Shown here: positions 5,315 through 18,864 of the stretch, piece after piece | Position numbering within the stretch: the stretch's first letter is position 1 | How the letters are laid out: each line of letters begins with the position of its first letter | IMG/VR virus record: IMGVR_UViG_3300037069_001724 | Span: 1 to 64,000 of that record | Source of the DNA: a virus | Direction: 5' to 3' (one strand) | DNA length: 64,000 nucleotides | Made by a program: the position numbers and the translations under genes | The notes under the pieces: model-generated | The model's database searches: none | Told to the model about the DNA's origin: nothing | What the model saw: the letters and a program-made list of their open reading frames with translations, nothing else

Positions 5315-5525
5315 CTTGCCGTCCTCCCACATCTTCGGTTGGGTTGGCTGGAGAGAATGCGAGTAGGGCGTCAAACCATCTGGCTAGCGCATATACGCCG
5401 CCATCATGAACTTCGCCTGCCATATCGTCGGTTGCTTCGTTGGCGAGCGATCGCGCTAGTTCTGAAACGTATCTCGGCAAACATTCTCGCACCGTATCGA
5501 CCGTGAGAGTCTGGACAATTTTCAT
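5307..5525 (-). CDS. Hypothetical protein, 72 aa
   Basis: A small acidic helical protein (residues 1-55 mostly helix; Gly-rich C-terminal tail). ATG start overlapping the upstream stop (ATGA) shows translational coupling. No motif recognised. Confidence 0.55.
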   Translation of the reverse strand: MKIVQTLTVDTVRECLPRYVSELARSLANEATDDMAGEVHDGGVYALARWFDALLAFSPANPTEDVGGRQDG

Positions 5526-5812
5526 ATTCCAAATTCCTCCTGTTTGAGGGGCTTTGGGGAATCGATAAACATATCAGGCTGTTTCAAGGCATCGGAAATG
5601 CGCTTAACCGCGATCTCCTTGTCGGTACGACTCGGATCCTGCTCCAGCTCGTCCAGAGCTAGGTCGACGGTATCCGCTTCGCTGTCGCTCATGTACTCGA
5701 TGGCCAACTCGCCGATGATGCGAGCTCTGGCGTGCTTCAGGTTGGTCTCGCGCAGTCGGTCGAGAACGCGGTTCTGGTAGTATCGGTTGGGAAACTTCTC
5801 GCCGCCACTCAT
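5522..5812 (-). CDS. Hypothetical protein, 96 aa
   Basis: Starts MSGGEKFPNR at 5812 with GGAGGT upstream. An acidic helical protein with alternating charges (residues 25-75), soluble. The sequence upstream in this frame is shadow of the next gene. No family recognised. Confidence 0.55.
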   Translation of the reverse strand: MSGGEKFPNRYYQNRVLDRLRETNLKHARARIIGELAIEYMSDSEADTVDLALDELEQDPSRTDKEIAVKRISDALKQPDMFIDSPKPLKQEEFGI

Positions 5813-6090
5813 GACCTCACCTCCACTGGTAGTGCCGACTTCATAGCCTCGATCCAGGTCCGGAGATCCTCGCGAGCGCGGTCGATCTCCGTTCGCTTGT
5901 ACTTCTGGCCGGTGTACTCGTGGCACATGGCCAGCGCCTTGGTGATGGTGAGGCCGCGACGCGGCGATATGCCCACCTTGAGAAGCCCGAGAGCGCTGCT
6001 CAGGACCGCAGCCCTGAACAGGTTGACCGCGTCGGTGCCGTGAAACACGGTGCCGCCGCTCGATACCGTGATGCCGTCATGACCTTGCAT
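5809..6090 (-). CDS. Hypothetical protein, 93 aa
   Basis: Starts MQGHDGITVS at 6090. An alpha/beta protein with a moderately hydrophobic stretch near residues 23-45 (not long or pure enough for a confident membrane helix) and a charged helical C-terminus. Overlaps both neighbours. No assignment. Confidence 0.55.
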   Translation of the reverse strand: MQGHDGITVSSGGTVFHGTDAVNLFRAAVLSSALGLLKVGISPRRGLTITKALAMCHEYTGQKYKRTEIDRAREDLRTWIEAMKSALPVEVRS

Positions 6091-6298
6091 CTTCGTTCTC
6101 CAATCTCTTGAGCTCAAGAAACGCCAGACAGATCGCGACGTGAACATTGGTCTCGTCCAACGCTGTGAGCCGCTTCGGCTTGTCCATCTCCTGAACAACC
6201 CGCTCGATTACGATCTGTAGTTTTGTAACTTCCTCGTGGCTCATGCCAAGGATGAGCGCATCGACGCGCGTGCTGAAAGAACTGGAGCATCGTCTCAT
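6077..6298 (-). CDS. Hypothetical protein, 73 aa
   Basis: ATG at 6298 overlapping the upstream stop (ATGA). Mostly helical, with MSHEEVTKLQIVIERVV (about 19-35) as a likely amphipathic helix. No motif recognised. Confidence 0.5.
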   Translation of the reverse strand: MRRCSSSFSTRVDALILGMSHEEVTKLQIVIERVVQEMDKPKRLTALDETNVHVAICLAFLELKRLENEDARS

Positions 6299-6507
6299 GA
6301 CACTTTCTCCCCTACCGGACTGTTGGGAATTCGCGTGACGTCCCACGTCGGGTTGTCGCATAACTCAGTAACCTCTCTCACTGTCATCTCCTGTCCCGGG
6401 TTGAACTCCGTGGAGTTCTTCACCGAGATGACGACGTGCACGCGGCGCTGAACCTTGCCGAGCGAGTACTCCTCGAAGTAGGCCAGCTTGATTGCTTTGA
6501 TCTTCAT
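6295..6507 (-). CDS. Hypothetical protein, 70 aa
   Basis: A small, probably beta-rich protein (alternating hydrophobic residues in 20-33). Begins 3 nt after the stop of the VWA-like gene, with GGAGGACTG upstream. No family recognised. Confidence 0.55.
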   Translation of the reverse strand: MKIKAIKLAYFEEYSLGKVQRRVHVVISVKNSTEFNPGQEMTVREVTELCDNPTWDVTRIPNSPVGEKVS

Positions 6508-6510
6508 GAC

Positions 6511-7335
6511 TCAGTCCTCCTGCTTGACGTATTGTTGCATTGTGCGCTTCAGCCAACCGATCGGGTCCCGCGTCATGGGGTCCGTCAGGTAGATGCCGGG
6601 GATGTAGAGCAGATCCCCGCCGTGGTCCATTATTCTGCGCAGACGCTCCTCGGCGGTGCGAACGTGCAGATCGTAGTTGTTGAACGGCCACGCGCCGCCC
6701 GTCCTGTTCAGGGACTGGTTCAGCTTGTAGCCGAACAGCCGCGACATGGCCGTTGCCCCGATGTGATATGCGGCACGCGCCAAGTCCAGCGGCGTGGTGT
6801 CGATGCGCCACGCCACGGTGCCACTGCCGCCGCGAGACCAACCGCCGAGGCTGGCGCCAACCCACAGCTCCACCGCGCGATGCTCCACCAGCATGCGGCA
6901 CAGTGCCAGCAGAACCACGCCGCGACGCGCCACGTCGCTGGCGTCGATGCCGCCGCTGCTGGTCAGGTCCATGTATATGGCCAGCGGGGCATTGTCGCGG
7001 GCCGCACGCTCGCGGCGCCGCATGCACTGCGGGTGTCCGGCGAGGAAGGCCGGCACGTTGGGCACCGCGCCGACCACGTCGTCCACGTTGCGCCAGCCGC
7101 GCGACATCGGCACCTGATCCTCGATCTCGGCGAGGAACCGCTCCGACTCCTCGACCAGCGAGTTGTCGCCGACAGCGGCCTTGCTCCGAAACGACGAGAC
7201 AGTGTCGCCCTCCCAGTCGCCGCCGTGACCCCTGAACGCGCCGACGTTGGCGTCGATGACGTCCGGTATCTCGCCGGCGTCCATGAAAATGTACTTGTCG
7301 AGGCCGTGATTAGTCGCCTGCTCTACCTGTCTCAT
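6511..7335 (-). CDS. VWA-like protein, partner of the adjacent AAA+ ATPase
   Basis: A protein of 274 residues. The segment PLAIYMDLTSSGGID (about 111-125) has the D-x-S/T-x-S pattern of a von Willebrand A metal site after a hydrophobic strand. It is followed by a helix and a second strand (VELWVGAS), as in CobT- or CoxE-like proteins. Its ATG overlaps the stop of the AAA+ gene, so the two are co-translated. MoxR/CbbQ-type AAA+ proteins commonly pair with VWA proteins to remodel a target complex. The specific target here is unknown, and I infer the fold only from this motif and the pairing. Confidence 0.5.
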   Translation of the reverse strand: MRQVEQATNHGLDKYIFMDAGEIPDVIDANVGAFRGHGGDWEGDTVSSFRSKAAVGDNSLVEESERFLAEIEDQVPMSRGWRNVDDVVGAVPNVPAFLAGHPQCMRRRERAARDNAPLAIYMDLTSSGGIDASDVARRGVVLLALCRMLVEHRAVELWVGASLGGWSRGGSGTVAWRIDTTPLDLARAAYHIGATAMSRLFGYKLNQSLNRTGGAWPFNNYDLHVRTAEERLRRIMDHGGDLLYIPGIYLTDPMTRDPIGWLKRTMQQYVKQED

Positions 7336-8447
7336 GACAGTTGCCTCTTCTGCTCTGGTTTCAGGTTGGCCATGTAGGTCATGTTCGCCGCCTGCTCGTG
7401 GCTGTAGCCAGCCGCGATGAGGCACGCGCCGGCCTGCGCCGCTCGCGTGTCGATCAGTACCTTGAGGCCCACGGCGCGGGCCTTCGCTCTCGCGACGCGC
7501 ACCGCGTTCAGCCACTCGGCGTTGTCCACGATATTCGCCTCGAGAACCGGGTCGATGTCCCAGTTGATGCGGATCGGGAACCTGGACAGGAACGCCGCGT
7601 CCAGCTTGGTGGCGCCGCTGTAGTTCGCGTCGGCGCCGAGACCCCAAGTGTTAGCGGTGCACACGATGATACAGTCCTTGTGCCGCTTGATCTGCTTGTC
7701 CGGGAACGTCGCGATCCCGTTGGCCAGATGCGGGTTGACTGCGAGCAGCGCCACCGGGTCCGATCGATCAACCTCGTCGAACGTGTAGACGCCCCCGTTC
7801 TCGTACGCCTCGCGGAACGGCGTGCGGTGATACTTGCCGGCGCCGTCGATGAAGCCGAGCATCTCGTGCGGGAACGAGATGGCTCCGTTGAAGTGCCACT
7901 TGAGACCGAGCGTCTCCGCCAGCATGCGGGCGCCGGTGGTCTTGCCGCTGGAGGCCTCGCCCTGCAGGAATATGCCGGGGGTGTAGCCGTTCGGCAGCTT
8001 GACGCTGGCGGCGCGCATGAGATGCTCGAACTGCGAGTGCGCGTGCCCCTTGATCTTGACGACCTTGCCGTCGGAGTTCTTGACGGTCAGCTCGACCTTG
8101 CGCGGCACGCGAGTCTCGAGCGCCTTCAGCACGACGTTCGCCACGGCCTCGATGTCCACGGCCTTGTTCCCGATCTTCTCGAGAACCTGCTCAGTCACCT
8201 TGTCCACGTCCACGCTCTGGATCACGTTGGTCGTGAGTGCGACGCCGCCGGCCTTGTTGTGCCTGCGATTGGCGCGCAGGATCAGGCGTCCAGCGAATAG
8301 CTCCTGCTTCTCAGTCCAGATGCGACCGTTGTCGACCCAGCGAAGGAGGTCCTTCGCCTTCTCGTAGCTCGGCAGGATCAGGCCCTGCGTCTCCTTCTCC
8401 TTCAGTACGGGGAGAAGCTTGCGTAGTTCTTCGACATTGTTTGCCAT
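7332..8447 (-). CDS. AAA+ ATPase, MoxR/CbbQ-like
   Basis: A protein of 371 residues. Residues 1-155 are a helical N-terminal region. Walker A is GEASSGKTT (163-171), Walker B is YTFDEVD (221-227; Asp224, Glu225), and sensor 1 is in VCTANTWG. The FLSRFPIRINWD segment supplies the likely arginine finger. AAA_5-type phage ATPases of this layout act with a neighbouring VWA-like protein, present directly downstream. CAGGAG precedes the ATG at 8447; sequence further upstream in this frame is not protein-like. Confidence 0.8.
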   Translation of the reverse strand: MANNVEELRKLLPVLKEKETQGLILPSYEKAKDLLRWVDNGRIWTEKQELFAGRLILRANRRHNKAGGVALTTNVIQSVDVDKVTEQVLEKIGNKAVDIEAVANVVLKALETRVPRKVELTVKNSDGKVVKIKGHAHSQFEHLMRAASVKLPNGYTPGIFLQGEASSGKTTGARMLAETLGLKWHFNGAISFPHEMLGFIDGAGKYHRTPFREAYENGGVYTFDEVDRSDPVALLAVNPHLANGIATFPDKQIKRHKDCIIVCTANTWGLGADANYSGATKLDAAFLSRFPIRINWDIDPVLEANIVDNAEWLNAVRVARAKARAVGLKVLIDTRAAQAGACLIAAGYSHEQAANMTYMANLKPEQKRQLS

Positions 8448-8476
8448 TGTACGGCTCCTGTCATGTGAAAACGAAC

Positions 8477-8500
8477 TGCTGCGGCGCGCACGCCGCAGCA
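8477..8500 (-). terminator. Hairpin, possible terminator or attenuator
   Basis: A perfect 10-bp stem TGCTGCGGCG/CGCCGCAGCA around a 4-nt loop. On the minus strand it is followed within a few bases by GTTCGTTTTC. It lies between the gene at 8547-8780 and the AAA+ gene, so it may end the upstream transcript or limit read-through into the AAA+/VWA pair. Confidence 0.5.
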
Positions 8501-8546
8501 TCACCGTTGATTTCATGATGTTGCCCTTACCTTAGTGTGACGCCCC

Positions 8547-8780
8547 TTACGACGCAGTGGCGCGAACTGGCAACACCTTGATGATCTTCTCGTTCAGCGC
8601 GTACCGCACGGTGGACTTGCGGGCGCCCGCCTTCAGCGCCGCTGCGACGGTGCGCTTCTGGTTAGCGGTGCGCATCACCGCTTCCCAACGCTTCGCGACC
8701 TCGGTGCCTGCTCGGAAGGGATTCTCGATCTTCTTCACGAGCACGATCTTCGCGTTGTCCTGAATGAGCTTGACAGCCAT
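8547..8780 (-). CDS. 77-aa protein made of the NPxxxG-KRWE module
   Basis: Residues 18-68 (IENPFRAGT..AKRWE..TVAA..AG..TVRYAL) repeat the C-terminal module of the 246-residue protein at 4168-4908, with the same NP, KRWE, TVAA and AG positions. Here the module stands almost alone with a basic N-terminus, suggesting a small DNA-binding or adaptor protein. ATG start with GGAGAG upstream; flanked on both sides by hairpins. Confidence 0.6.
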   Translation of the reverse strand: MAVKLIQDNAKIVLVKKIENPFRAGTEVAKRWEAVMRTANQKRTVAAALKAGARKSTVRYALNEKIIKVLPVRATAS

Positions 8781-11852: not shown

Positions 11853-12650
11853 CTACTCCATCCCCGTCCACGCGACGAAGTCGTCTCCTATGACATACTT
11901 GCCGCTGCTCTCGATCCAGCGATACATCTCGCGTGCCCACGGCGGCTGCTCGTCGTGCTCCTTGGCGTTCATCTCGCGCTTGAGGCAGACGTAGTTCTCG
12001 CGTAGCTCGCTCGGCACCGCGCCCATCTTGATGACATAGAATGCGCCGCTCTCGCGATACTTGCCGACGAGACATCGGGGTATCTCCACGGTCTTAGGAA
12101 CAACGGTGTCCAGCACGAACGTGTTGGACTGTCCCAGGCGATGCCAGTACATGTTCCACTGCTCCACGGTCACGTTGCCCGCCAGCCACTCGCGGTCGGC
12201 GAGATACGGGTGATGACTCTCGTGGTGTCCACCGTCCTCCGGCGTGCCGGGTCGGTAGTCGTGCACCTTACCGTCGATCCTCACGTGATCGAAGTGCGGC
12301 CCTATGGTCCTGACGCCGTCGGCCTTCTGTCGGGCTACTCTCTCGACAATCTCCTGCGACATCATCTCGGCCTCGACCAGCAGCAGATACCGACGAAGAT
12401 CCCTGACCTCCGCCAGCATGGTTCCGTCGGCACCGTCAGGGGCCGCCGCTATGTGCGCGAAGATGTCGTACTGCGCACTGCCGCCGGCGATCATGCTCTC
12501 CATGCGGTCCCACTTGCGCGCCAGCATCATGAAGGCACCGACACCGCCGCGCTTCTTCCAGCTACCCTGATACGTTTTCTCTCTCATCTCGACGAACGCT
12601 ATGTCCTCCTCGCTCACTATCCCGAGATATTTCATGTGGTCCATGTTCAT
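11853..12650 (-). CDS. Phage protein with Nmad/DUF1599-like N-terminal segment
   Basis: A protein of 265 residues. The segment around residues 24-55 (TYQGSWKKRGGVGAF..LARKWDRMES) resembles the GDSWKK-F-G..RLSDKxxR pattern of nucleotide-modification-associated and DUF1599-type domains, helical domains found beside base-modifying enzymes. The middle holds a His-rich segment (GHHESHHPY, about 141-149). The assignment rests on a short match and on context, since it lies between the HD hydrolase and the polymerase. The start at 12650 has a full AGGAGGG site, although it overlaps the HD gene by 89 nt. Confidence 0.5.
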   Translation of the reverse strand: MNMDHMKYLGIVSEEDIAFVEMREKTYQGSWKKRGGVGAFMMLARKWDRMESMIAGGSAQYDIFAHIAAAPDGADGTMLAEVRDLRRYLLLVEAEMMSQEIVERVARQKADGVRTIGPHFDHVRIDGKVHDYRPGTPEDGGHHESHHPYLADREWLAGNVTVEQWNMYWHRLGQSNTFVLDTVVPKTVEIPRCLVGKYRESGAFYVIKMGAVPSELRENYVCLKREMNAKEHDEQPPWAREMYRWIESSGKYVIGDDFVAWTGME

Positions 12651-13173
12651 CGTAACCCTCCTGTTGCTGTCGCCTGTCGCAGTACCGCTTGACAGCGGCC
12701 TGAGTGGTGTCGTCCATGGTGTCGCAGATGGCGCCCGCCGCCTGTATCATGCGCAGCGCAACGAGCTGACCGTACTTGTTGCCTAGCGCGAGCTCGTGAA
12801 GTCCCCACTCCCACATCTCGATGTACTCGCACATCTTGAAGAAGCGGTGGTCGGCATAGTCGAGCGTGATGCGCCGAGGAACGCCCCACTGTTCGGTCAT
12901 CTTGGCGTGTATCTGGCTCTCGAGGATCTCCATCCGGTCCTTGAGCACCTGATCGTTCTTCTTGCCGGGATACGGGATGTCGCCACCCATCTCGCCGACG
13001 TCGTGCGTCACGGCGTGCACCAGCAGCCGACGGCTCACGTCCGGCCGCACCGCGAGCATGATGCGCATGATTTGAGCCGAATGTTCACCGACTGATTGAT
13101 CTCGAGTGCGAGGCCAAGTATGAAACCTAGTTATTTGCAGGGCAACTCGAGGATCATGTGTAGGATCTATCAC
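12562..13173 (-). CDS. HD-domain phosphohydrolase (YfbR-like)
   Basis: A protein of 203 residues with HD-domain ligands: a His in SVGEHSAQI (about 33-41), HD in AVTHDVGEMGG (about 60-70) and a later conserved Asp/His in LDYADHRFF. The layout resembles YfbR-type deoxynucleoside 5'-monophosphatases, so hydrolysis of a dNMP or modified nucleotide is likely. Next to a ThyA-like enzyme, it could remove dTMP or recycle analogues; that is inference. The GTG start overlaps the ThyA-like stop. The last 30 residues are unlike the domain and overlap the next gene. Confidence 0.7.
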   Translation of the reverse strand: MIDPTHDPRVALQITRFHTWPRTRDQSVGEHSAQIMRIMLAVRPDVSRRLLVHAVTHDVGEMGGDIPYPGKKNDQVLKDRMEILESQIHAKMTEQWGVPRRITLDYADHRFFKMCEYIEMWEWGLHELALGNKYGQLVALRMIQAAGAICDTMDDTTQAAVKRYCDRRQQQEGYDEHGPHEISRDSERGGHSVRRDERENVSG

Positions 13174-14231
13174 CTGCGATGCCTCCCTATCCAGCCCATT
13201 GCCGCGCGGCGCCAGTCGTCGGCCTCGACCTGCCGCACGCGGGTCACGGCCATGTCCCACCAACCCGCGCGCCGCGCCTTGTTGGCCATGCACATGGGCG
13301 CCGCCACGCGGTCGAACCATCTGTTGTTATACGTCGGCGTGGTCATGTCACTAAGTCCAGCGGCGTGCCACCGCATGAAGTTCGACAGGTCCTCGTCCCA
13401 GTGATAGAAGCTGTCTCCGATCGGCAGCGGAACTACGAGCTCGTCGCGATACGGGTCATCCATCATTGGAGGGATCTCATCGACCAGTGGCAGAAACACG
13501 TCGTCGTAGGCGTGATAGTTGTTCGAGAGCTGGTACATCTTGCCCACGCCGACCCCGATGCGACCGGCGAGATACTCCTGTAGAAAGCTGAAGTGCACGG
13601 CGTTGGCGCCGTAGGCTCCCCACACGATGTCGTTGCTGCGACACATGACCGTCAGGTCCAGGACGTACTTGCGCGTTGGATGCTCGGAGTCCACGTGACC
13701 GATGTCGCGGTCGTAGTCCTCGCGAACGCGCAGATAGACGTGCGTGTTGCAGGGGCGATCCCTCCAGTCGCCGGTGAGATCTTGCTCTCCAACTCTGCCA
13801 GACAACTGATGCCGCGCGTCCCACATTTGGATCACTGCTTGTCTATCGTCGCGATTACTGCGCAGCCTCGTCACGACCTCGTCCAGTTGATCAATGCCGA
13901 GGGCGCTGCGCCAGCGGTGCCCGTAGGCACCGTGGATCACGCCGTCGTCGGCGTATCGCTTGCTGAACGTGGCCACGTAGGCGTCCAGCATCTTGGCGTC
14001 GTTCTGCCCGCTCAGCATCCAGAGACACTCGAACAGGTGAAAGAACGGATTGGCATCACGCGCTGGATCGAACAGAACACGCTGCGTTGAACTGTCGTAG
14101 ATCGACATGACAGGGCAGTCCATCACGGTCACTGGTCCGTTGCGGCTGTCGCTCTTGCGCCCGTACTTCCTGAGCATCAGCATGCCGTTATGATACAGAT
14201 CGTTGACGTTGGTTCCCAGTAGTGTGATCAA
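13170..14231 (-). CDS. Thymidylate synthase-like enzyme (ThyA or dUMP hydroxymethylase)
   Basis: A protein of 353 residues of the ThyA/dNMP hydroxymethylase superfamily. The catalytic Cys is in RPCNTHVY (Cys161); the usual following His is Asn162. Phosphate and pyrimidine residues appear as CRSND (Arg198-Asp201), YGAN (Asn210) and HAY (His240, Tyr242). Asn210 matches the residue that selects uracil over cytosine, arguing for dUMP as substrate. ThyA makes dTMP; phage relatives make 5-hydroxymethyl-dUMP, the first step toward hypermodified thymines. Which of the two cannot be settled by eye. I chose the TTG at 14231, which overlaps the upstream TGA and follows GAGGAAG. Confidence 0.8.
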   Translation of the reverse strand: MITLLGTNVNDLYHNGMLMLRKYGRKSDSRNGPVTVMDCPVMSIYDSSTQRVLFDPARDANPFFHLFECLWMLSGQNDAKMLDAYVATFSKRYADDGVIHGAYGHRWRSALGIDQLDEVVTRLRSNRDDRQAVIQMWDARHQLSGRVGEQDLTGDWRDRPCNTHVYLRVREDYDRDIGHVDSEHPTRKYVLDLTVMCRSNDIVWGAYGANAVHFSFLQEYLAGRIGVGVGKMYQLSNNYHAYDDVFLPLVDEIPPMMDDPYRDELVVPLPIGDSFYHWDEDLSNFMRWHAAGLSDMTTPTYNNRWFDRVAAPMCMANKARRAGWWDMAVTRVRQVEADDWRRAAMGWIGRHRR

Positions 14232-14656
14232 TGCTTCCTCCTGCGCAGTAAGTCGTTGACTCCCTCGGCCATCCGACCAAAGAACTCCCTCGAGTCCTTC
14301 TGTTTCTCCGGCGTCAGGTCGTTGTACATCTGATACTTGACGCGAAGACCGTCGAGTAGTCTCTTCTCGATGCCGGCGATGTGACGCTCCGACTCCCAGA
14401 GCGCCTCCTGGCTGCCTAGCTCGATGGCCGGCGCCTCCTCGCTCATGAAGATTGTCATGCACGACAGGATCAGTTCGTGCATCACCAGCTTCGACGCGCT
14501 CAGGCACAGCGACTGCTCCATGCACAGTTTGAACATGATGTTCGATGTGGTGGCAGCCACGCCTATGACACGCGACAGCGCGTGGTTTCTCGTGTTCTCG
14601 TCCTCGAAGCATCCGCATCCTGGCTCCGGGATCACGTCGATATCAAACTTTGTCAT
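14228..14656 (-). CDS. Hypothetical protein in modification operon, 142 aa
   Basis: N-terminal CGCFEDE (about 14-20), then a helical, moderately hydrophobic middle (residues 30-70, with three Cys) and a charged helical C-terminus. No motif recognised. It overlaps both neighbours by a few bases, so it belongs to the operon of the UDG-like and ThyA-like enzymes. Confidence 0.55.
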   Translation of the reverse strand: MTKFDIDVIPEPGCGCFEDENTRNHALSRVIGVAATTSNIMFKLCMEQSLCLSASKLVMHELILSCMTIFMSEEAPAIELGSQEALWESERHIAGIEKRLLDGLRVKYQMYNDLTPEKQKDSREFFGRMAEGVNDLLRRRKH

Positions 14657-15114
14657 CAGCCAACCTCCTCCTTGTGATAAGCCGCGTAGAGCTCCTCGAG
14701 AAGCAGGCCCACGGCCTTCCTGTTCTCAGAACCATTATACCATCTATTGCGGCCACTCGGATGAGGTACTTGTCGCCACGTACTCCCACCGATGTCCTGC
14801 GGATGGAGCAGCAGCGGGGGGTGGCAGAAGGCGCGGCGCACCTCCTCGCCGAGCAGAACTATTGTGCGGCGCGATCCCCAGAACTCTGCGTAGAACAGGT
14901 CGGCGGACTTGCGCGCCGTGTCCCGGTCCCAGTCCCCTACGACGAGGTTGCGTCGCTCGAACGTATCGAGGTAGTTCTGTCGTCGCAGGTCCGGGCGCCG
15001 CTCGCGCAGCATCTCGAAGATGCGGTGCCCGGTGCAGCCCGGCGGATACGGGAACAGCGCGTGCTCCGGTCGAACCGACAGAGGGTTCTGCATTCCGATG
15101 AGAACTGGTTTCAT
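14656..15114 (-). CDS. Uracil-DNA-glycosylase-fold protein
   Basis: A small protein (152 residues) with UDG-superfamily features. Residues 4-12 (VLIGMQNPL) are the first strand and loop, IVLLGEEV (85-92) a later strand, and VPHPSGRNRWYN (116-127) the HPSG..N loop that closes on the base. The usual GQDPYH-type catalytic Asp is not obvious, so it may bind or process a modified base rather than excise uracil. Phages with altered thymine often carry UDG relatives. ATG at 15114 overlaps the kinase stop. Confidence 0.65.
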   Translation of the reverse strand: MKPVLIGMQNPLSVRPEHALFPYPPGCTGHRIFEMLRERRPDLRRQNYLDTFERRNLVVGDWDRDTARKSADLFYAEFWGSRRTIVLLGEEVRRAFCHPPLLLHPQDIGGSTWRQVPHPSGRNRWYNGSENRKAVGLLLEELYAAYHKEEVG

Positions 15115-15671
15115 AGCTTCAGCCACCACTTGATCGCGTTGAAGCACGCCTCGCGGTCGCCCGCGAACACGTTCGGCACTCGCAGCGCGCGGAACGTCTT
15201 CACGTTGCTGTCCACCTTCCGCATCGTCTTCTCGATGCTGGCGGCGGCTATCTTGTGGCCGCGCGCCCGCACGCCCTCGACGCACTGCTCCAGCGGCGTG
15301 GTAAGGTGCACGATGCGCGCGTCGTGACCCTCCCGCACGAGCTGCATGAAGTTTGTGGTGCCGTCGCCCATGTTCATCCCCTCGTACAGCACGTCCATGG
15401 CGCCGGTGGTGATGGACGTGGACGCCACCGTGCGAATGGTGTTGTAGACGTCGTTCAGGTCGCCGATGGTGTCGATGCCGCCGTTCGCAATCTGGTAGTG
15501 ACCGAGAACCACCAGAATGGCGCCCGTCGGCGGGTCCCGCGTGAACACGCTCATGATGGGCTTCTTGCGCTTCGGCGCCATCACGTCCTGCTGACCGGGA
15601 TACATGGCCATGATGCGCCGGGCGAGATGCGACTTACCGCTGCCGCTAGTCCCTCGGATGCTGATGATCAT
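15111..15671 (-). CDS. P-loop kinase, candidate 5-hydroxymethyl-dU DNA kinase
   Basis: A protein of 186 residues. Walker A is GTSGSGKS (7-14) directly after the first strand (MIISIR), and the rest has the size of a nucleoside/nucleotide kinase core. The organisation resembles 5-hmdU DNA kinases of phages with hypermodified thymine, which phosphorylate hydroxymethyluracil already in DNA. Adenylate- or polynucleotide-type kinase is the alternative. Context (ThyA-like, radical SAM, HMUDK-helical-like gene) favours the DNA kinase. The ATG at 15671 shares its A with the radical-SAM stop. Confidence 0.6.
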   Translation of the reverse strand: MIISIRGTSGSGKSHLARRIMAMYPGQQDVMAPKRKKPIMSVFTRDPPTGAILVVLGHYQIANGGIDTIGDLNDVYNTIRTVASTSITTGAMDVLYEGMNMGDGTTNFMQLVREGHDARIVHLTTPLEQCVEGVRARGHKIAAASIEKTMRKVDSNVKTFRALRVPNVFAGDREACFNAIKWWLKL

Positions 15672-16702
15672 CACCGCTCCTCCCACGGTCTGAGAACCGG
15701 CTTCGTCTGCGGCGACAGCGCGTTGACGCGCGCGATCTCCTCGCGTGTCTGCGCGTCCGGCCTGCGCAGCGTTCCGCTACCGTCGTAGTTCGGCAGAATG
15801 CCGACCCTGAAGCTACGATGATCGCAGCCCTTGCACGGCCTGAGCATGTCGCGTCGACCGGCATACAGTGCCTCGCGCGCCGCCCCGAACGCCGGACCAT
15901 TCCAGATGGCCTCGATGCCGTCGGTCAGTATGTTGCCGCAGTGATACTCACCTCGCCAGTCGTTGCAGCACACGGCCACCGATCCGTCCCAGTGAATGGC
16001 GAGCTGACGGAACGGAAGTGCACAACGCTTGCCCTGCATCCTGTCGTTCGGGGGCGCCCCCGCTCCGGCGTGGTTCGACAGTCGATTGTGATTGCCCTTC
16101 TTGTCAGTCTTCTCGGTCCACGCTATGTCCTTGATGCGAACGAGCATTCTGGTCCCCGGCTTGTATCGAGCGTGTGGATTGCCGCGCGAGTCGTACGGAT
16201 ACTCGTAGAAGTTGAACTGCTGACCACCGTGTGCGCTGTACTTCTCGCCAGAAACGAATTGAAGATTACCCTGCATCGCGGTCAGAACCTTCGGAACATA
16301 CTCGATGTTCTGGTAGTGATCGAGGCCGAGGATCGTCAGCCCGGCGTCGAACAGCGCGTTGACATTGGCCACCGCACCCGGCTTTCGCAGCAGTCCACCG
16401 GCGTTCGTCAGCATCAGCTTGGTCGAGCGCGGTCTGTGCTCGTGCGTGATCGCCACCATGCCGGCGTAGTTCGGATGCTGCGTCGGGTCGCCGCGCATGG
16501 CGAAGCCGATGCGCGAGTTCCAGCCCAGCTCGGCCACCTGCTCCATCGCGCTGCGCATCGTGGCCTCGGCCATGAACTTGTAGCCGTGGCCCTGCTTCTC
16601 CTGAATGCCAGCGATCCCGCAGAACGAGCATCGGAGATTACATCCCATGCTCAGCTCGAACGAGAGACTGTTCGGCGGCTCCTGCCTTCTGTACTTTCGC
16701 AT
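15671..16702 (-). CDS. Radical SAM enzyme with SPASM/twitch-like C-terminus
   Basis: A protein of 343 residues. The [4Fe-4S] motif is CNLRCSFC (Cys21, 25, 28). A C-terminal Cys set (Cys227, 245, 246, 255, 290, 293; in CALPF, VCCND, HCGN and CKGC) fits an auxiliary cluster of SPASM or twitch type. Such enzymes perform radical chemistry on peptides, sugars or nucleotides. In some hypermodified-thymine phages a radical SAM enzyme rearranges an amino-acid-modified base. Here it sits between kinase and glycosyltransferase-like genes with 1-3 nt overlaps, so a role in base modification is the best inference; substrate unknown. Confidence 0.8.
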   Translation of the reverse strand: MRKYRRQEPPNSLSFELSMGCNLRCSFCGIAGIQEKQGHGYKFMAEATMRSAMEQVAELGWNSRIGFAMRGDPTQHPNYAGMVAITHEHRPRSTKLMLTNAGGLLRKPGAVANVNALFDAGLTILGLDHYQNIEYVPKVLTAMQGNLQFVSGEKYSAHGGQQFNFYEYPYDSRGNPHARYKPGTRMLVRIKDIAWTEKTDKKGNHNRLSNHAGAGAPPNDRMQGKRCALPFRQLAIHWDGSVAVCCNDWRGEYHCGNILTDGIEAIWNGPAFGAAREALYAGRRDMLRPCKGCDHRSFRVGILPNYDGSGTLRRPDAQTREEIARVNALSPQTKPVLRPWEER

Positions 16703-17691
16703 CACGCCATCTCCCTCTCCAGCTTGACCTGCGCCGACTTCATCTGCTCCAGCAGCAGCCCGTGATAATTGCCGCGTATCCACTGCCTGCGCTGCTCCAG
16801 GCCGTGCTTGTCCCTGTCCACCATGAACTTGGCCACGTCGCGGGCCTTCTCCACGACCCACGGCGCGGGATCGTAGCCCGCCTTGCGCAGCATGGGACCG
16901 CACTCCTGCTGAAACACCATGGGCAGGCCGGCGCTCAGCATCTCGTAGAACCGATTGGCCGGGCTGTGAAAGTTCTCGCTGGATTTGCGGTCCTCGATGT
17001 AGAGGCCGAGACCGTTGGTGCCCAGCACGTTGTAGAAGTTGTCCAGTATCGGTCCGACGTGCGTGCACTTGGGATATCGCTCGGCGAACTGCTTCGCCGG
17101 GCTGCTGATGGTGGTCGCCACCGTCGGCTCCGCGAAGTAGCGGTCGAACAGCGGCACGCGACTGGACTTGCCGGAGCCGTCGCGATACGACCCGTAGTAC
17201 AGCAGCGTCTTGCTCGCGCTGCTGCCGCGCCGCTGCGTGATCCTCTTCTCGCTGAAGTCCTTGTCGAAGGTCAGCATGTTCCAGTTCACGTACGAGCTGC
17301 CCTTTCGCTGAGACCACTCCTCGCACGTCGACCAGAAGTCCATGTGCGGCTTGCCGGCCTCGTGCCTCTCGCGGAACGCCGCGCGGAACGGACTGATGCC
17401 CTCGCTCTCGATCTTCGGCGGAATGATGCTGTAGTCGTTCTGTATCCAGACGATGCGACGCGCGGTCTTCACCAGCGCCGCGAGTTCCGGCAGACACTTG
17501 CAGAAGCCATACGCCCCGTTGACGATGTAGAGAACGTCCAGCTCGGCACCGTCGTACTGTCGAATATTCTGGTAGTCGACCTCCGGCAGCTTGAGATGCG
17601 CCGCCACGTACTTGAGAATGCGAATACTCGCGACCATGCTGTTGTCGCTGATCCGCACGAACGAGAACACGATGCTATTGGCTCTTGGCAT
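16702..17691 (-). CDS. Glycosyltransferase-like protein (GT-B type)
   Basis: A protein of 329 residues. The C-terminal segment NFHSPANRFYEMLSAGLPM (about 240-258), followed by Gly-Pro-rich GPMLRKAG, matches the donor-binding helix region of GT-B glycosyltransferases (N-R-F-E-x-x-x-x-G-x-P). The N-terminal half has strand/turn patterns such as RIVWIQNDY that fit a Rossmann domain. In this operon a modified base in DNA is a plausible acceptor, but virion or cell-surface glycosylation cannot be excluded. ATG at 17691 is preferred over the upstream TTG because GGGAG lies at normal spacing. Confidence 0.6.
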   Translation of the reverse strand: MPRANSIVFSFVRISDNSMVASIRILKYVAAHLKLPEVDYQNIRQYDGAELDVLYIVNGAYGFCKCLPELAALVKTARRIVWIQNDYSIIPPKIESEGISPFRAAFRERHEAGKPHMDFWSTCEEWSQRKGSSYVNWNMLTFDKDFSEKRITQRRGSSASKTLLYYGSYRDGSGKSSRVPLFDRYFAEPTVATTISSPAKQFAERYPKCTHVGPILDNFYNVLGTNGLGLYIEDRKSSENFHSPANRFYEMLSAGLPMVFQQECGPMLRKAGYDPAPWVVEKARDVAKFMVDRDKHGLEQRRQWIRGNYHGLLLEQMKSAQVKLEREMA

Positions 17692-17911
17692 TTTCAATCT
17701 CCCTCAGGCGTGTCAGAACGCCGCGTTTCCTGTCTAGCTCGCCTCTGACGAACTCGCGTATCTTGGCTAGGCGATTGTAGCGCTCCTCCGCCTCGACCAT
17801 CGTCTCGCGCGCTCTCTGCTCCTCTCTCATCACGGCGCTGGCCAAGCCGTTCAGGCCGTCGATCTCCTCCACGATAGCCCTGATCGGGTTGAATGGTGTC
17901 GGCTCTGTCAT
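17675..17911 (-). CDS. Small coiled-coil protein, 78 aa
   Basis: Starts MTEPTPFNP at 17911 and is almost entirely charged helix from residue 25 on (EEQRARETM.., LDRKRGVLTRL..), a probable coiled coil. It overlaps the glycosyltransferase gene by 17 nt. No family recognised; possible subunit or scaffold for neighbours. Confidence 0.55.
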   Translation of the reverse strand: MTEPTPFNPIRAIVEEIDGLNGLASAVMREEQRARETMVEAEERYNRLAKIREFVRGELDRKRGVLTRLREIENAKSQ

Positions 17912-18864
17912 CGGTAGACCCCTCTCGGCTTGCCCTCGCCAAGCCTGACGCGCTCGTACTTGTCGAACTCGCAGAGCGTATGCTCCACCTCGCGCATTTC
18001 CCACGCCGGCCATTTATTCTCAATTTCCCTGCGATGTCTCTCGTCAAACGAACCATCGCCGCACGAGGCCGTATCTGCATGTGGCCACATTCTAGCATCC
18101 CTCGAGATCTCTAGCAACGCGCGCATCTCTTCTATGAGACCATCCCTGCCGACAGTGTGATCCTTCACCTTGCGCTCGTGCACGCGGTTCAACCCACGCC
18201 GCGCCCCCGGTCCCGGGTTCGCCCAAGTCAATATATCGGGGGCGCCTCCGAGAAGCGTGGTGTGACGCAGGTCGGTCACGATCTCGTACGAGTGGAACGG
18301 CCCGAAGTAGTCGTTACGCTTGAACCAGTCCCAGGCAATCTCCAGTGAGGAGTGTCCGTCCATCTTACTCATGTAGTTTGCCTCGACCTGCCAGCCAGAC
18401 TTCTTATTGAACGTGTCGATGATCTTGAGCATCCCGTCCAGCTTGTTCATTCCCGGCGGACTGCTGATGATGTAGGCCCCGGTGACGTATGGTCCGTTCC
18501 CGCAGTTCGCCAGTATCGCACGCTTGAGAACAGCCACCTTGCCCGTCTCCATGTACTGAGCCCACGCGCTCTCGTACTCGATGTCGGCTTGGTTCCAGAT
18601 GGCCTCGCCCACCGATATGCGGTTCAGCAGCCGAAAGACCACGGTCGCCAGCATCACCTCGTCGGTGTTACGCATCGGATCGCGGACGTTCTTCCTGAAC
18701 CAGACGGTTGTCTTGTCTAATTCTCTATAGATATTTGTAAAGCGATATTGGTTGAGAATTGGATCTTTAGACCATGGTCTTGGTTTCCCCGCTGTTCTAT
18801 CAAGATATATTTGATGACGCGCCCGCGCGTACCGGAAGAAAGCATTGGTGCCACGACTGGTCAT
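17908..18864 (-). CDS. 5-hmdU DNA kinase helical-domain / aGPT-PPlase-like protein
   Basis: A protein of 318 residues. The N-terminal block RARHQIYLDRTAG (14-26), PWSKDPIL (30-37) and RFTNIYRELD (41-50) is the pattern I know from the helical domain linked to 5-hydroxymethyluracil DNA kinases and alpha-glutamyl/putrescinyl-thymine enzymes of hypermodified-DNA phages. The rest is helical, with ALLEISRDARMWPH near 250-263. It may recognise the modified base or DNA for the separate kinase at 15111-15671, or be a transferase. The family match is by eye, but the context is strongly supportive. The ATG at 18864 follows GGAGATTGAA. Confidence 0.65.
   Translation of the reverse strand: MTSRGTNAFFRYARARHQIYLDRTAGKPRPWSKDPILNQYRFTNIYRELDKTTVWFRKNVRDPMRNTDEVMLATVVFRLLNRISVGEAIWNQADIEYESAWAQYMETGKVAVLKRAILANCGNGPYVTGAYIISSPPGMNKLDGMLKIIDTFNKKSGWQVEANYMSKMDGHSSLEIAWDWFKRNDYFGPFHSYEIVTDLRHTTLLGGAPDILTWANPGPGARRGLNRVHERKVKDHTVGRDGLIEEMRALLEISRDARMWPHADTASCGDGSFDERHRREIENKWPAWEMREVEHTLCEFDKYERVRLGEGKPRGVYR

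Follow-up and report, generated by a model that had tools for sequence, protein, structure and literature searches.

The window analysed here, a 64-kb stretch of the 71.5-kb IMG/VR virus record IMGVR_UViG_3300037069_001724, carries on its minus strand a gene for a radical SAM enzyme next to one for a GT-B glycosyltransferase (GT). A preliminary description of the sequence had proposed that these genes overlap by about one base inside a putative modification operon, and on both points it was accurate. The GT frame starts with ATG at 17691 and ends with TGA at 16702, the position at which the ATG of the radical SAM gene begins (junction TGATG), and the radical SAM frame ends with TGA at 15671. 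One base is likewise shared at the junction with the kinase gene that follows; because the start of the kinase gene mirrors the GT/radical SAM overlap, the three genes form coupled cistrons. The minus-strand run extends from HMUDK_hel (18864) down to a thymidylate synthase (TS) homologue (13170), with neighbouring genes overlapping by a few bases (Table 1). The pair is embedded in a tightly coupled hydroxymethyl-deoxyuridine (hydroxymethyl-dU, hmdU) modification operon, surrounded by HMUDK_hel, the P-loop kinase, the TS homologue and a YfbR-like HD protein, and the locus holds both genes by which we recognise an hmdU-type cassette (TS homologue and HMUDK_hel). No second copy of the radical SAM gene was found in the 71.5-kb record.

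Table 1. Genes of the modification operon, in window coordinates.
Feature	Coordinates	Strand	Length (aa)	Basis or remark
HMUDK_hel protein (5-hmdU DNA kinase helical domain, formerly aGPT-Pplase1)	17908..18864	-	318	
Small open reading frame (ORF)	17675..17911	-	78	Overlaps both neighbours
GT-B glycosyltransferase (GT), T4 beta-glucosyltransferase-like	16702..17691	-	329	Predicted structure and aligned residues
BtrN-like twitch radical SAM enzyme	15671..16702	-	343	PF13186, PF04055, profile and structure match
P-loop nucleotide kinase-like protein, probable hmdU DNA kinase	15111..15671	-	186	AAA_33
Uracil-DNA-glycosylase-fold-like protein	14656..15114	-	152	phrog_12275
Protein of unnamed family	14228..14656	-	142	Coupled to neighbours
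TS homologue, putative dUMP hydroxymethylase	13170..14231	-		PF00303, phrog_5131; TTG start at 14231
YfbR-like HD nucleotidase	12562..13143	-		Start approximate; PF12917 below cut-off, phrog_6047

The radical SAM protein matched PF13186 (E = 1.9e-14) and, below the cut-off, PF04055 (E = 1.5e-5). A profile of 53 relatives retrieved the butirosin dehydrogenase BtrN with E = 2.2e-24, the next protein scoring 4.9e-7. When the predicted structure (predicted local distance difference test, pLDDT, 95.3) was compared using VIA-align, BtrN (4m7t) reached Z 25.1 with 241 of its 246 residues aligned, and no other entry exceeded 15.0. Cysteines C21, C25 and C28 (CX3CX2C) are present in essentially all aligned sequences, and C227-X12-G240-X4-C245 together with C290-X2-C293 fit the pattern CX9-15GX4C...CX2C, that is, one four-cysteine cluster. 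Under the published definitions of twitch and SPASM domains (PMC6231123, PMC9012708), the latter with the motif CX9-15GX4C-gap-CX2CX5CX3C-gap-C (PMC6231123), the C-terminal domain is by its cysteine pattern a twitch domain with one auxiliary cluster, as in BtrN. The SPASM assignment of the preliminary description (seven cysteines, two clusters) was consequently rejected, as only CX12GX4C and CX2C were found and no CX5CX3C.

A further cysteine, C246, lies beside the auxiliary ligand C245. Of the 89 aligned sequences, 88 have a residue at this position and 87 of them keep the cysteine; one search pattern favoured it, but apart from L102 it is also conserved in sequences that this pattern had not retrieved. 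In BtrN, a cyclitol alcohol is oxidised by means of the twitch auxiliary cluster (PMC9012708), whereas in the epimerase NeoN a cysteine, Cys249, gives a hydrogen back (PMC10991966). Given this role of the NeoN cysteine, epimerisation of a sugar would, by analogy, be as likely as oxidation. Because RiPP-type (ribosomally synthesised and post-translationally modified peptide) and sulfatase-maturing radical SAM enzymes also appeared among the structural matches, with Z scores of 14-15, the protein might instead serve to activate a partner enzyme, as a maturase of peptides or proteins. We give this very little credence, since BtrN lies 10 Z units higher, a radical SAM core and one twitch domain account well for the 343 residues, and no precursor peptide gene was noticed, though no search was aimed at one.

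The GT had no match in Pfam, PHROG or NCBIfam, and a direct search of its sequence against the PDB returned nothing up to E = 1. Its AlphaFold model (pLDDT 91.6; 20 sequences in the alignment) has the GT-B fold, bearing out the earlier label of a glycosyltransferase-like protein. VIA-align placed T4 beta-glucosyltransferase (beta-GT; 1nzd) on top (Z 21.0, 295 residues, root-mean-square deviation 3.5) and T4 alpha-glucosyltransferase (alpha-GT) second (Z 17.3), the remaining GT-B enzymes scoring 16.2 or less; this ranking re-orders a Foldseek list headed by Gtf3, with T4 alpha-GT at 9e-6. By hhalign, residues 157-265 were in register with T4 beta-GT (E 0.0032, probability only 10%). A nucleotide-sugar site, for which the preliminary description had advised looking by structure prediction, is suggested by S168, R170, R178, R247 and E250, which align on S189, R191, R195, R269 and E272 of T4 beta-GT; we take the last four of these to be UDP-glucose residues. 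R170, R178, R247 and E250 are invariant across 20 homologues, as is D86, which occupies the strand-end position matching the catalytic base D100 of T4 beta-GT (IVWIQND vs IYYLFTD); this position lies beyond the stretch paired by hhalign. The protein did not match the family hidden Markov model PF09198, to which T4 beta-GT itself scores 9e-98, and we therefore do not file it as a member of that family. From its model it looks like a DNA-base glycosyltransferase, and T4 beta-GT is able to glucosylate hydroxymethyluracil (PMC4111573).

A homologue of the GT in Escherichia coli phage IME392 adjoins genes for HMUDK_hel, a P-loop kinase, a TS homologue, YfbR and a PIG-L deacetylase, and that of E. 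coli phage EP_H11 lies in the same gene layout (Pfam was run on IME392). Both hmdU-type cassettes (L020, 3066-12604, and L177) also contain a BCCT/choline transporter gene. Nothing on the base chemistry of either phage was found in the literature searched. Many phage GTs act on lipopolysaccharide (LPS) and this one lacks a family model, so that it could in principle modify a cell-surface glycan for superinfection exclusion, with the radical SAM gene as an unrelated neighbour. Most loci of the GT family, however, carry HMUDK_hel and/or a TS homologue, those of the isolated phages IME392 and EP_H11 included, which are cassettes of like composition and not LPS loci; furthermore, the structure that it matches best is that of a DNA glucosyltransferase, and the gene is coupled by one base inside the operon. 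This explanation is the least credible of those considered, and identity as an LPS glycosyltransferase, which the preliminary description had named as a possible refutation, was rejected in view of its context and fold.

To place the pair in a wider context, we compared loci from other records, which are fragments and in which ORFs were called mechanically. The GT/radical SAM pair recurs in other contigs (L001/L012, L013/L045, L023, L024, L083 and L094) and is therefore not a chance arrangement; overall, the pairing is seen in dozens of uncultivated phages but was absent from those isolated phages that were searched. After dereplication, a GT was present in 57 of 64 radical SAM loci, within 50 bp in 37 of these 57. 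The seven loci without one comprise two in which the contig ends just past the gene and five remote homologues. The partner GT belongs to the window family, to TAGT (PF20691, GT-A fold) or to two further putative GT-B families, and these families alternate within radical SAM clades. In one supported clade a TET/JBP gene (PF12851) stands in place of the TS homologue and HMUDK_hel. This arrangement was seen in L050, L053, L057-L059, L066, L068, L073 and L175, with GT genes in most. The last of these, from Actinomadura rayongensis, is the one radical SAM locus detected in bacterial genomes and has a ParB-like gene and a GT-B gene in addition to TET/JBP.

For a sample blind to the pair, we fetched the 80 best-scoring of 592 HMUDK_hel loci regardless of GT or radical SAM content. 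A GT was found in 10/10 loci with the radical SAM gene versus 19/70 without it (Fisher 1.2e-5), and the association held after dereplication at 90% (p = 1.0e-4) and 70% identity (p = 0.0035). Thus, the radical SAM enzyme seems to need a GT, whereas the GT can do without the radical SAM enzyme, an asymmetry that is expected if the substrate of the radical SAM enzyme is made with the help of the GT. Thirty-nine of the 80 loci (among L122-L173) had no recognised GT, twitch radical SAM or amino acid:DNA transferase (ADDT, PF18724) of the M6/YuA route, and most of these had only the TS homologue and PolA. Twelve of the 80 carried ADDT, together with neither GT nor radical SAM.

Homologues in phages with normal bases, which would have counted against a role in DNA modification, did not turn up: tblastn found the radical SAM gene in 0 of 50,697 cultured phage records, and in BFVD there were only distant matches, the top ones with at most 15% identity. 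Tandem remote homologues (22-24% identity) in L074, L075 and L077 keep the CC motif and have no cassette genes nearby. Some cassettes contain further members typical of sugar tailoring, namely FkbM methyltransferase, PIG-L deacetylase and APS kinase. The GT/radical SAM cassettes of L042, L049, L033 and L036 have an FkbM-family methyltransferase gene flanked by HMUDK_hel and TS, which suggests O-methylated sugars. In L061-L063 and L070 (about 5389-8562), the radical SAM gene is accompanied by TAGT, a sulfotransferase-like protein without a Pfam match and an APS kinase (PF01583, E = 1.6e-57), and a sulfated sugar on DNA is possible there.

Of the remaining operon genes, HMUDK_hel (PF18723, E = 7.6e-44; phrog_2396, E = 4.4e-62) is 46% identical to ORF13 of Pseudomonas phage Ab18. 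The TS homologue (PF00303, E = 7.7e-17; phrog_5131, E = 3.8e-86; both from a longer ORF, 13173-14618) is 41% identical to YuA gp17 and to the Ab18 homologue, against 23% to T4 dCMP hydroxymethylase; dUMP rather than dCMP specificity was judged by this overall identity, the TS motif being offset by one residue relative to T4 gp42. Further matches came from the YfbR-like protein (PF12917, E = 5.7e-5, below the cut-off; phrog_6047, E = 8.4e-21) and from the uracil-DNA-glycosylase-like protein, of which a related cluster member (L080) matches PF03167 below the cut-off (E = 0.035). The kinase (AAA_33, E = 1.4e-8; HMUDK_HMUD1 below the cut-off) is 32% identical to the Ab18 kinase that adjoins HMUDK_hel in that phage. 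PHROGs calls this family (15111-15686) 'terminase small subunit' (phrog_800) and the Ab18 copy is annotated likewise, which is probably a misannotation. A P-loop kinase occurs in 15/22 loci with the window GT family versus 2/65 with other GT families (p = 7e-10, kinship of loci uncorrected), one of these two being an APS kinase. Across loci the kinase tracks the window GT family and ADDT, not TAGT or the remaining GT-B families. Because the kinase tracks its family, the window GT might work on or beside phospho-hmdU, a suggestion we make tentatively.

The preliminary description had set the pair apart from the known amino-acid route, and rightly so: none of the 25 virus records tested, among them the 71.5-kb record, contained ADDT, in a search to which YuA served as a positive control. 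It had also suggested comparison with M6 and ViI homologues, which brought no relationship to light. Against the YuA/M6 radical SAM only 11 residues around CX3CX2C align, and the radical SAM profile A4 gave no match in the ViI record, in a search without a positive control. With ADDT absent and the YuA/M6 enzyme unrelated, the amino-acid logic does not apply. Of the two products then envisaged, a sugar-linked or a radical-rearranged thymine, the former is favoured and the latter less likely, since BtrN is closest by both sequence and structure and a GT lies beside nearly every relative.

A specific form of rearrangement would have the radical SAM enzyme rebuild the 5-hydroxymethyl or phosphomethyl group, for instance by a new C-C bond, with the GT decorating the product. 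The carbon chain on uracil in Bacillus phage SP-15 can indeed be glycosylated (PMC5977210), and a P-loop kinase is coupled to the pair, so that a phosphate could be a leaving group. On the other hand, the A4 profile had no match in SP-15 as in ViI, the YuA radical SAM enzyme has only CX3CX2C in common, and the kinase is absent from most other radical SAM cassettes. Moreover, a base of the TET/JBP type is equally accepted, which a sugar substrate fits better than a thymine-specific rearrangement. We consider such rebuilding rather improbable.

To account for the operon layout, the families and folds, the residue matches and the GT dependence across phages, we propose that the GT glycosylates hmdU in DNA and that the radical SAM enzyme then oxidises or epimerises the sugar, a reading to which we assign a probability of roughly 55%. 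For the donor sugar, the attachment atom, the order of steps and the type of reaction, we infer the following scheme. The TS homologue would make hydroxymethyl-dUMP and the phage polymerase would incorporate it, by extension from the M6-type pathway, in which hmdU is phosphorylated by a kinase (PMC6449724). The GT would move a sugar from a nucleotide-sugar donor onto hmdU in DNA, either at the hydroxymethyl group itself or, once the coupled kinase has phosphorylated it, at the phosphate. The radical SAM enzyme would abstract a hydrogen atom from one of the carbons in the ring of the attached sugar, upon which either the alcohol would become a ketone via the auxiliary cluster, as in BtrN, or the centre would be inverted by a hydrogen returned from C246, as reported for NeoN Cys249.

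Several observations weigh against this proposal. The active site is, from the alignment, not identical to that of BtrN: R152 corresponds to H211 (67 H and 4 R among the 89 aligned sequences) and F188 to C246. We take R152 and F188 to be substrate-pocket residues, and given their replacement the reaction may differ from that of BtrN. RiPP enzymes score level with the sugar enzymes other than BtrN, and therefore only BtrN itself indicates a sugar-like substrate. The sequence similarity of the GT to T4 beta-GT is slight (hhalign E 0.003, probability 10%), with no Pfam model. Finally, after dereplication of the blind sample at 50% identity (24 loci), the contrast of 2/2 versus 7/22 kept its direction and lost significance (p = 0.13).

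The order of the two steps could also be reversed: the radical SAM enzyme would first act on a nucleotide sugar or cyclitol in free form, and the GT would then attach the resulting unusual sugar to hmdU. BtrN takes a free aminocyclitol (PMC9012708), and DesII, which likewise acts on a small molecule, ranks fourth structurally (Z 14.8); this order, too, accounts for the dependence of the radical SAM enzyme on a GT. It would require, however, that partner GTs of unrelated folds (GT-A in TAGT, and the GT-B families) all accept the altered donor, and no NAD-epimerase/dehydratase (PF01370) was found in the phage genome. We regard this order as unlikely, if somewhat less so than rebuilding of the base. 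Remodelling of the sugar after its attachment, the preferred reading, might be generalised: one BtrN-like family, combined with interchangeable GTs and hydroxymethyl-base makers (TS homologue or TET/JBP), might produce pyrimidines with keto or epimerised sugars in situ, the link in the window clade being a sugar phosphate made by the coupled kinase. This extension is speculative.

If the proposal is right, DNA chemistry would gain sugar remodelling by a radical SAM enzyme in need of a DNA glycosyltransferase. Several nucleosides not yet known could then be expected in dozens of uncultivated phages, and testable enzymes for producing sugar-modified DNA would be at hand. BtrN-type chemistry, to our knowledge so far known from antibiotic (aminoglycoside) pathways, would be extended to DNA. 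The presence of methyltransferase, deacetylase or APS kinase genes in some cassettes suggests that the code of decorated sugars is a broader one, which could block restriction or DNA-glycosylase defences.

Among known systems, the T4 glucosyltransferases resemble the window GT in fold over nearly the full length, in the S-x-R...R and R-x-x-E nucleotide-sugar residues, in a gene near a TS-family hydroxymethylase and, for beta-GT, in having an aspartate after the strand corresponding to the one that carries D100. Identity to beta-GT is nevertheless only about 12%, the base in the window is probably U and not C, and the gene forms a coupled unit with those for a radical SAM enzyme and a kinase. 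The radical SAM enzyme shares fold and both cysteine motifs with BtrN but mostly has histidine for R152, a conserved cysteine for F188 and a C-terminal extension past the BtrN match, and it is phage-borne and linked to DNA glycosyltransferases. Phage thymine hypermodifications known to date involve amino acids (M6, ViI), polyamines (phiW-14) or plain glycosylation. The window has the layout of Mesyanzhinovviridae such as Ab18 and YuA, whose M6/YuA members contain hmdU-derived bases (PMC6449724, PMC11946847). M6, YuA and Ab18 cassettes share with it the TS homologue, HMUDK_hel, P-loop kinase, HD protein and PolA in similar order; unlike them, the window has a GT, no adjoining ADDT or pyridoxal-phosphate enzyme and an unrelated radical SAM. 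SP-15 offers a sugar-decorated thymine derivative with GT genes, its dihydroxypentyl-uracil being glucosylated (PMC5977210); it uses a ThyX-type synthase, and as a relative it was rejected, matching neither radical SAM nor GT profiles (one of the searches without a positive control). TAGT of T-even and TET phages differs from the window GT in its GT-A fold and was not found in the 71.5-kb record; in many loci it is the partner GT of this radical SAM family.

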